64,000 bases of DNA from Gordonia sp. UBA5067. Lineage in GTDB: Bacteria; Actinomycetota; Actinomycetes; Mycobacteriales; Mycobacteriaceae. Under the pieces are notes generated by a model. That model was not told the origin of the DNA. It did no database searches and saw nothing but the letters and a program-made list of their open reading frames with translations. Shown here one piece after another: positions 4,440-6,532 of this stretch. A program made the translations under genes and the position numbers. The stretch covers positions 32,456 to 96,455 of the forward strand of contig NZ_DIAX01000028.1 of NCBI RefSeq assembly GCF_002414845.1, in the 5' to 3' direction. Positions within the stretch are counted from its first letter, which is position 1, and each line of letters starts with the position of its first letter.

Positions 4440-6023
4440 ATGGGTACTGACTCGATCCGTCCCGAGCACGTGGTTCCGACGCCGGTCGCCGATCTTGCCG
4501 CGCTGATCGGCACTGTCAGCGGGGGAGAGGGCGGCGAGGTCTCCGGGGTCACGCTGCGCGCGCAGCACGTGCGCCCCGGTGACCTGTTCGCCGCCTTACC
4601 CGGTCTGCGGGTCCACGGTGCGGCTTACGCCGAGGAGGCGATCCGGCGTGGCGCCACCGCGGTGCTCACCGATCCGGCTGGCGCCGACCTCATCGCGGAA
4701 CAGGCCGGTCGGCGCCGGTCCGCGGTCGCCGTCCTGATCCATCCGGATCCGCGTAGGGTGCTCGGCGTCCTCAGCGCACGCGTCTTCCACCACCCGAGTG
4801 CGGCGTTGGCACTCATCGGAATCACCGGTACCTCGGGCAAGACGACGACCGCGTACATGGTGGAGGCGGCCTTGTTGGCGGCCGGGCGGTCGGTGGGGCT
4901 CATCGGCACCGTGGCCACCCGCATCAACGGCGTGGTGGCGCCCAGTTCGCTGACGACACCGGAGGCTCCGGACCTGCAGGCTTTGCTGGCGGCGATGGTC
5001 GAGCGCGGCGTCGACACGGTCGTCATGGAAGTCTCCAGCCATGCGCTGTCCCTCGGACGGGTGGCCGGTACTTCGTTTGCCGTCGGCGGATTCACCAATC
5101 TCTCGCAGGACCACCTCGACTTCCATCCGACTATGGAGGACTACTTCGCAGCGAAGACGGCGTTGTTCGCACCAGATTCGCCAGTGGCCGCCGCCACCGC
5201 GGTGATCTGCGTCGACGATGAGTGGGGGCGGCGGATGGCGGCGCTCACCGACGATCCGGTCACGGTTGCGACGGTCGACCTACCGTCGCAGCGGGCGGGC
5301 GACGCGCCGGCCCGGCGCTGGACGGCCCTGGTGGCAACCGGTGACGGGGCGGCGACCCTCCTCGAACCCTCCGGGGACGAGCACGCACTGTCGGTTCCGC
5401 TCCCCGGTCGCTACAACGTGACCAACGCGGCGCTGGCGGTCGCGCTGTGCGCCGCTGTGGGCGTCGACGTGCGGCGAGCCTGCGCGGGAATCGCCGATGT
5501 CGTGGTGCCCGGTCGACTGGAACCAGTGCAGGCCGGGCAGGACTTCCTGGCCGTAGTCGACTACGCCCACAAGCCGGCCGCGGTCGAGGCGGTGCTCGCG
5601 ACGCTGGGCGCCGAATCCGCGGGGCGGATCGCCGTCGTCCTCGGCGCGGGGGGCGACCGGGACCGGGGGAAGCGGGCGCAGATGGGAGCCGCGGCCGCGC
5701 GCGGCGCCGATCTGGTGATAGTGACCGACGACAATCCGCGAACCGAGGACCCGGCTACGATTCGCGCCGCGGTGGCGGCGGGTGCCCGGGCGGTCGGTGA
5801 CGGGCAGCGTCGTGCCGCCGAGATCCGCGAGACCGCCGGCCGGGCCGAGGCGATTGCCGCCGCGGTGGCATGGGCCCGGTCCGGCGATGTCGTCCTGATC
5901 GCGGGCAAGGGCCACGAGGCCGGCCAGGAGATCAATGGCGTCAAGCACGATTTCGACGATCGGGTGGTGTTGGGGAATGCGTTGGCAGACCTGATGAGCC
6001 GGCGGGACGAGGGCTCCCGATGA
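4440..6023 (+). CDS. murE: UDP-MurNAc-L-Ala-D-Glu:meso-diaminopimelate ligase MurE
   Basis: Cytoplasmic ATP-dependent Mur ligase that adds the third stem-peptide residue. It has the N-terminal uridine-binding domain (about 1-115), the central ATPase domain with P-loop GTSGKTTT at residues 130-137 and the conserved SSHAL segment, and the C-terminal domain carrying TDDNPRTEDP. DNPR is the motif linked with meso-diaminopimelate specificity, so the wall should be the DAP type expected of Mycobacteriales. Length (527 aa) is normal. The stop overlaps the start of the murF-like stub by 4 bp. Confidence 0.96.
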   Translation: MGTDSIRPEHVVPTPVADLAALIGTVSGGEGGEVSGVTLRAQHVRPGDLFAALPGLRVHGAAYAEEAIRRGATAVLTDPAGADLIAEQAGRRRSAVAVLIHPDPRRVLGVLSARVFHHPSAALALIGITGTSGKTTTAYMVEAALLAAGRSVGLIGTVATRINGVVAPSSLTTPEAPDLQALLAAMVERGVDTVVMEVSSHALSLGRVAGTSFAVGGFTNLSQDHLDFHPTMEDYFAAKTALFAPDSPVAAATAVICVDDEWGRRMAALTDDPVTVATVDLPSQRAGDAPARRWTALVATGDGAATLLEPSGDEHALSVPLPGRYNVTNAALAVALCAAVGVDVRRACAGIADVVVPGRLEPVQAGQDFLAVVDYAHKPAAVEAVLATLGAESAGRIAVVLGAGGDRDRGKRAQMGAAAARGADLVIVTDDNPRTEDPATIRAAVAAGARAVGDGQRRAAEIRETAGRAEAIAAAVAWARSGDVVLIAGKGHEAGQEINGVKHDFDDRVVLGNALADLMSRRDEGSR

Positions 6024-6532
6024 GCGTCGGCGCCGATCCCCGGCCCGGTTCTGACGAGATCACGGTGATCGACAGCGCCGGGGCCACATCGATTGCCGAG
6101 GGCAGGGCGGTGCTGCGTCGGTTGGTGGAGATAGCCGCCGATACCGGCGCCGGCAGCACCCATCGAGGGGCGCCCGGTGCCGCGCGCACGTGGTTGGTGC
6201 TCGGCGAGTTGGCCGACGAATCAGAGGTGGACCGTCGCGTCATCGACCATGACCTTCTCGGGCGTGCCGCGGTGCGGCTCGCCGTCGACAAGATCGTCTG
6301 CATCGGTGACTCACGGCCGGTCCGAGCGGCGCACCAGGGCGCGGTTATGGAGGGATCGTGGGGCGACGAGGCCAACCTGGTCGGGACCGCCGAGGAACTC
6401 GCGCTCCGGTGGCGAGACCCGGGTGAGCCGGCGCCGTCGGGCGGTGATGTGATCGCCCTGGTCGGCGGGTGGGATCGGACTGCGGTGCTCGCCGTGTTGG
6501 CCGAGCGGGACCTGGTGGTCCGGCGGATCTGA
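6020..6532 (+). pseudogene. MurF-like remnant: degenerate C-terminal domain only
   Basis: Only about 171 codons occupy the murF slot, against roughly 450-530 in functional MurF. What remains resembles the C-terminal Mur ligase domain: ITVIDSAGATSIAEG sits where MurF has its D-x-YNANP-x-S block; then come WLVLGELADESEVDRRVIDHD (MurF: VLGEM.ELG...H), VCIGDS, HQGAVMEGSWGDEANLV (well conserved in actinobacterial MurF) and GDVIALVGG, where MurF has GDVVLVKAS. The N-terminal UDP-binding and central ATP-binding P-loop domains are absent, YNANP has become SAGATS and the KAS motif is lost. It cannot be an active ligase. The frame is open and the ATGA overlap with murE is kept, so it may still be translated. 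Confidence 0.75.

Follow-up and report, generated by a model that had tools for sequence, protein, structure and literature searches.

A conserved, predicted non-catalytic remnant of MurF encoded between murE and mraY in Gordonia and related genera

Fusions of MurE to MurF and the use of Mur-type C-terminal domains as docking surfaces are both already known. The available text of the report on the Bordetella MurE–MurF fusion describes its binding to MurG (PMC6420597), and that on GatD/MurT describes how GatD docks on MurT, whose Mur-type C-terminal domain supplies two consecutive helices as the docking site (PMC6113224). When interactions were screened in M. tuberculosis with a split-protein assay, as far as the available text of that report extends, Mur ligases bound PknA/B, FtsZ, FtsW, FtsQ, Wag31 and SepF, MurF alone among them bound DdlA and the NamH homologue, and no Mur ligase bound another (PMC3605390). 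Two old questions, whether the Mur ligases work as one physical complex and what keeps the dcw cluster together, have been difficult to address experimentally, since every one of these ligases is essential.

Here we describe a short murF-derived gene in a 64,000-nucleotide stretch of Gordonia sp. UBA5067 (contig NZ_DIAX01000028.1; hereafter the window), where its open frame follows an intact murE and precedes mraY (Table 1). The product, which we call the stub, is without the P-loop ATP domain and without the N-terminal UDP-sugar domain, and it has no Pfam match. Against TIGR01143 it scores 12.3 bits (E = 0.058) over profile positions 322–387 only and does not reach the curated cut-off of 288.6 bits. 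The PF02875 profile does not match it either, while 36 of 89 aligned members do match at E ≤ 0.01 (best 3.3e-22), and the fold of the stub is that of a complete Mur ligase C-terminal domain. A sequence search of solved structures returned two matches (E 0.033 and 0.67), both of which we judged to be due to chance. The window's stub represents the last domain of the ancestral dcw MurF, to which murF has been reduced; lacking the UDP-sugar and ATP domains, YNANP and the K-A/G-S motif, it is predicted to be incapable of ligase activity. The ATGA overlap probably couples translation of murE and the stub. An earlier note on this DNA had read the gene as a MurF C-terminal domain of about 171 codons with the UDP- and ATP-binding domains, YNANP and KAS gone and the ATGA overlap with murE kept, and had proposed looking for a complete MurF elsewhere in the genome and at the same locus in sister species. 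That description was confirmed, and a complete murF does lie elsewhere, as set out below.

Table 1. Features of the murE–mraY interval, in window positions
Feature	Position	Strand	Remarks
murE	4440..6023	+	527 aa, intact; NF001124 592 bits against a cut-off of 476
MurF C-terminal-domain stub	6020..6532	+	170 aa
ATGA in which the murE stop overlaps the stub start	6020..6023	+	Start at −3 in 44 of 47 unfused stub loci
Remnant of the catalytic DxYNANP-S segment, lost	6074..6100	+	Residues 19–27
Constrained core	6239..6382	+	Residues 74–121; median dN/dS 0.035 against 0.35 for the rest, 18 pairs
QGAVMEGSWGDE motif	6335..6370	+	Residues 106–117
Site of the lost K-A/G-S motif	6461..6469	+	Residues 148–150; VGG in the window's stub
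mraY, gene downstream of the stub	6635..7747	+	

Homologues of the stub are present in all 37 genomes of the genus Gordonia (G000–G036, every one of which was read), and a survey of the family, in which 192 of 201 genomes gave a match and nine did not, pointed to five further genera, g28, g31, g33, g37 and g39. When UBA7599 and G. araii are added to the 37, murE and mraY flank the stub in 39 of 39 loci, ten of them with the stub fused in frame to MurE; the same gene order was found in 20 of 20 additional loci (three from Gordonia and 17 from the five other genera), two of which, both in Gordonia, are fused. The combined set thus holds 59 loci from six genera, 42 of them in Gordonia, with the stub always between murE and mraY, its frame open in every locus, and 47 stubs unfused; the three unfused stubs that do not start at −3 of the murE stop start at −10, 0 and +7. 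Three g31 genomes (G149, G162 and G174) gave a short-frame match, and their loci lie outside this count. Elsewhere in the order, the murE–mraY interval holds an intact, full-length murF in 36 of 36 loci, which come from other genera and families. Both the 20 additional stub loci and these 36 intact loci were chosen among search matches and so show what the matching locus looks like, not how often it is absent. The order survey covered 150 genomes (116 with a match, 34 without). In a class survey of 394 genomes (119 without a match; results taken from the best rows only) no short frame outside Gordonia appeared among the matches listed, by a criterion that a fused stub or a stub within a long chance frame would escape. 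By our count, 35 of 88 short proteins (P0001–P0088) are systematically mis-annotated, as their database name is that of the complete MurF ligase. In Tsukamurella, one record listed as a plasmid (NZ_LR134460.1) has an annotated murF and may be a chromosomal piece.

Residues were compared across a single alignment that combined the 59 stubs with 36 dcw MurFs and 20 relocated MurFs, the last being the complete copies described below. Twelve catalytic residues were scored (D, Y, N, A, N, P and S; M, E and L; K and S), and 11 or 12 are kept in each of the dcw and relocated MurFs against 0–2 in the stubs (none in 23, one in 29 and two in seven). The DxYNANP-S columns are kept by 34–36 of the 36 dcw MurFs and by 20 of 20 relocated MurFs. 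Among the 59 stubs the Y and both N residues survive in none, D in two, P in three and S in six; A, the most frequent survivor, is found in 27, and the string YNANP occurs in 0 of 59. At the K-A/G-S motif the K is kept in no stub and the S in two.

What the stubs do keep is a core, GR..VRL...HQGAVMEGSWGxE, lying within a 48-residue region. In the QGAVMEGSWGDE motif, Q106, G107, E111–G115 and E117 are found in 59 of 59 stubs and M110 in 58, and the Q, G, M, E, G, S, W, G and E of this region are invariant in the 89-row alignment. Twenty columns are at least 97% identical among the stubs (57–59 of 59): R56, W58, H77, D78, G81, R82, V85, R86, G96, R99, Q106, G107, M110, E111, G112, S113, W114, G115, E117 and D143. 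In this set, which was picked for conservation in stubs, 15 of the 20 columns are kept by at most three of the 20 relocated MurFs, and the five that are common there too are R56, H77 and G115 (20 of 20 each), D143 (16 of 20) and E111 (10 of 20). Over 19 of these columns (R56 omitted), agreement with the window's stub extends to 15–19 positions in 23 of 25 dcw MurFs from its family, and to six and five in the other two, those of G062 and G064; it covers 6–16 positions in 11 dcw MurFs of other families and 3–6 in the 20 relocated MurFs. Many class-level MurFs carry the EGSWG loop and others do not, and since some complete MurFs are without it, ligation does not require the loop. The two outlying family members (DCW_G062 and DCW_G064), which belong to two genera, are complete dcw MurFs that lack the EGSWG core, sit on long branches and keep the catalytic motifs.

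In-frame fusion of MurE to the stub is seen in 12 of the 59 loci and in 11 of a set of 13 proteins; the window's own stub is a separate gene. On a tree to which eight fused database proteins were added (P0090, P0092 and P0096 being omitted as identical or close to rows already included), the fused or unfused state changes at least six times, and four of these changes are forced by well-supported branches. The fused protein P0100 (Gordonia sp. CPCC 206044) sits deep inside an unfused clade, from which it follows that fusion arose at least twice, and the window's unfused stub lies near fused relatives and may therefore be re-split. At one locus inside a fused clade (L011, genome G007) MurE and the stub are separate, in different frames and overlapping at the murE stop, which is probably the re-splitting of an earlier fusion. 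An AlphaFold2 model of a natural MurE–stub fusion (pTM 0.69, from 12 sequences) displays no docking of the stub on MurE, and such a model neither shows nor excludes contact between the two.

Selection was estimated on 18 disjoint pairs, chosen from trees so that no genome occurs twice. Their median dN/dS over the whole stub is 0.23 and the highest value is 0.44, against a median of 1.10 and a 2.5th percentile of 0.57 in a simple neutral simulation started from the window's stub, in which 113 of 200 runs gained a stop codon. The core (Table 1) is under very strong protein-level selection: its dN is near zero while its dS is not reduced and about equals that of the rest of the gene, and the constraint is therefore on the protein. 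Across the 60 closest of 741 pairs, which overlap one another, the stub has a median dN/dS of 0.29, compared with 0.13 for murE, 0.05 for mraY and 0.14 for relocated murF, this last a rough value as some of those ORFs are too long upstream (808 aa in G007 and 999 aa in G019). Outside its core the stub evolves faster than murE.

A complete MurF scoring above the curated cut-off was found in 61 of 61 genomes of a wider set, including all 37 of Gordonia, and a further check found one in 48 of 49, the exception (G073) being 66% complete. In the stub genomes this copy is only distantly related to the dcw MurF and lies away from the dcw cluster and divergent to ddl in 47 of 48 loci (36 of 37 and 11 of 11); at the remaining locus, in G026, the contig ends too early. 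Presumably it is this ddl-linked MurF that carries out pentapeptide ligation in stub genomes. In a MurF tree (without L211, which has no ORF fitting the motif pattern) the relocated MurFs group together as one clade (SH-aLRT 100) amid class-level sequences, with the dcw MurFs of both family and order placed elsewhere, and in a tree of C-terminal domains the stubs form one group (99) and the relocated MurFs another (98). Because the stub aligns with dcw MurFs and has in common with them the loop that relocated MurFs are missing, it is the old dcw gene and the ddl-linked complete copy the newcomer, which was probably acquired by transfer, perhaps from another actinobacterium. A quick MurE and MraY tree put the intact genome G089 among the stub genomes, with no support for that placement. 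When the tree was constrained to unite all stub genomes its likelihood was 10.4 units above that of the free search (p-AU 0.603), and a single origin of the stub therefore fits. At the end of contig C6 in G008 there is another MurF-like gene (L046), about 49% identical to the relocated MurF and interrupted by a stop codon.

The order-wide search also turned up a genus of family f9, g136, whose murF frames are short. Seven genomes of this genus were surveyed, of which G471 and G493 (89% and 75% complete) have no match; in the five loci read (L216–L220) a stub of 118–126 aa lies between murE and mraY in every case. Its start codon is GTG, placed at −3 relative to the murE stop, and it has lost YNANP and kept HAGAVLEGSWGxESRH. 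It lacks H77, D78, R99, Q106 and M110. The intact f9 MurFs of G044 and G057 also lack the last four of these and have H77, which was therefore lost in the g136 stub; the core kept by the stub is the one found in its own family. No MurF above the cut-off was found in the five g136 genomes (84–92% complete), where the best protein scores 174–183 bits and is of a distant type, bearing TGSYGKTTTK and YNSNP in G410; the sister-genus genomes have one above the cut-off in five of five tested. In all five, the gene that directly follows the distant MurF on the same strand (L226–L230) is ddl-like, being 27% identical to the genomes' own Ddl (E 5e-23), and this distant MurF is likely the working MurF of g136. 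Over all ten pairs dN/dS of the g136 stub is 0.08–0.18 in the core against 0.25–0.48 in the rest. The combination of a ddl-side MurF with reduction of the dcw MurF to its core region appears to have arisen twice, independently.

We favor the reading, at a probability of roughly 0.6, that the stub is a conserved non-catalytic remnant of dcw MurF (MurF-C) that serves as a docking module and is co-produced with MurE. In favor of this are the unvarying position of the stub, the repeated fusion to MurE, the constrained core, the complementary pattern of residue loss, the second case in g136 and the precedent of GatD/MurT. Helix 70–86, helix 99–110 and the EGSWGxE loop would offer their surface to a partner located at the membrane or where division takes place, and the module would hold MurE, and hence the supply of UDP-MurNAc-tripeptide, near MraY, with the ddl-linked MurF making pentapeptide meanwhile. 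The two helices may correspond to the GatD-docking helices of MurT as the available text describes them, by element order and not by residue-level superposition, and the overlap and the fusions would place the stub with MurE. Intact actinobacterial dcw MurFs also carry this candidate surface. Since the region is present in them and largely absent from the replacement MurF, the partner of the stub is more likely one common to both states than the replacement itself; and since intact dcw MurFs have the same core, the role looks retained and not newly gained. The earlier note had entertained an acquired non-catalytic role, for example as a MurE partner; a non-catalytic, MurE-linked role is indeed the best reading, and it is the acquisition that looks mistaken. 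As Mur ligases bound no other Mur ligase in the M. tuberculosis screen, the tie between the stub and MurE may be one of co-expression and not of contact. Nor would docking be universal, because some complete dcw MurFs (those of G062 and G064 and several of other families) are without the core. Also weighing against docking are the five conserved columns that relocated MurFs commonly share, the five residues missing from the g136 stub, and the faster evolution of the rest of the domain relative to murE. With slightly less than an even chance, in our estimate, the actinobacterial dcw MurF is itself bifunctional, a ligase with a C-terminal docking hub, of which the hub alone was kept, at least twice, once a ddl-linked MurF took over catalysis. 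A link between the loop and NamH, raised since the NamH homologue bound only MurF, was dropped after one Rieske search of the window's own genome, because the loop occurs in many MurFs of other orders of the class.

Other readings of the stub must be set against docking. It might instead be a ligand-binding regulator, a domain that senses D-Ala-D-Ala, ATP or UDP-MurNAc-peptide and adjusts MurE activity: the incoming amino acid is bound by Mur C-terminal regions according to the available text of PMC6420597, the stub is coupled and fused to MurE, and the charged residues D78, R82, R86, R99, E111 and E117 are invariant. However, the residues that working MurFs conserve are those the stub has lost, and the region the stub conserves is mostly absent from relocated MurFs, and we consider a regulator unlikely. 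That the stub has a complete Mur C-terminal fold would also suit a half-enzyme lending this domain in trans to the active site of MurF or MurE, but DxYNANP and K-A/G-S are gone from it and the relocated MurF has a C-terminal domain of its own with both motifs, leaving complementation of this kind very improbable.

Three further explanations dispense with a protein function altogether. A constraint at the RNA level, or one on coupled translation running from murE into mraY, would suit the nearly fixed start of unfused stubs, but against it stand a core whose dS is like that of the rest of the gene with dN near zero and the loss of the overlap through fusion in 12 loci, and we give it very little credence. 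The loss of catalytic motifs, and a dN/dS outside the core that exceeds those of murE and mraY, would fit a slowly decaying relic left open by chance in a GC-rich genome. Against this stand the dN/dS values of all 18 pairs, far from the neutral median, the near-absence of change in the core, a frame open in every locus, the repeated fusion and the second lineage, and decay is scarcely credible; the decaying paralogue of the earlier note accordingly fails, on selection and also on descent, as it is the complete ddl-side copy that is the newcomer. Assembly collapse, also raised there, or sequencing error has in its favor the short length of the stub and nothing else that we found, and it is excluded because the gene recurs in all 59 loci, including those of single-contig genomes such as G005 and G017.

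The locus offers a natural separation of function, in which catalysis was removed from the dcw MurF and one region kept, apparently twice, and MurF-C might serve as a deletable bait protein. If the docking hub is real, the dcw cluster would be held together in part by physical assembly, which could be dissected in Gordonia without touching catalysis. The short proteins named in databases as complete ligases would mislead work on essentiality and drug targets.

In the open-licence papers searched we found no report of a catalytically dead MurF C-terminal domain, standalone or fused to MurE, that is conserved across genera and seems to have evolved twice. Its closest relative is the dcw MurF of the order (TIGR01143), with which it shares the murE–mraY position, the C-terminal fold and the GR/VRL/EGSWGxE core, and from which it differs in having no UDP-sugar domain, ATP domain, YNANP or K-A/G-S. 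Like the bifunctional Bordetella protein (PMC6420597; NF008896), the fused stubs join MurE to MurF sequence; in the Bordetella fusion, as the available text has it, both halves are complete and active, whereas the stub fusions add only a non-catalytic C-terminal domain. GatD/MurT resembles the proposed MurF-C in the use of a Mur-type C-terminal domain as a docking surface, a use that for MurF-C is putative, but MurT, as described in the available text of PMC6113224, keeps its ATP-binding middle domain and joins in catalysis, while MurF-C stands alone or is fused to MurE.
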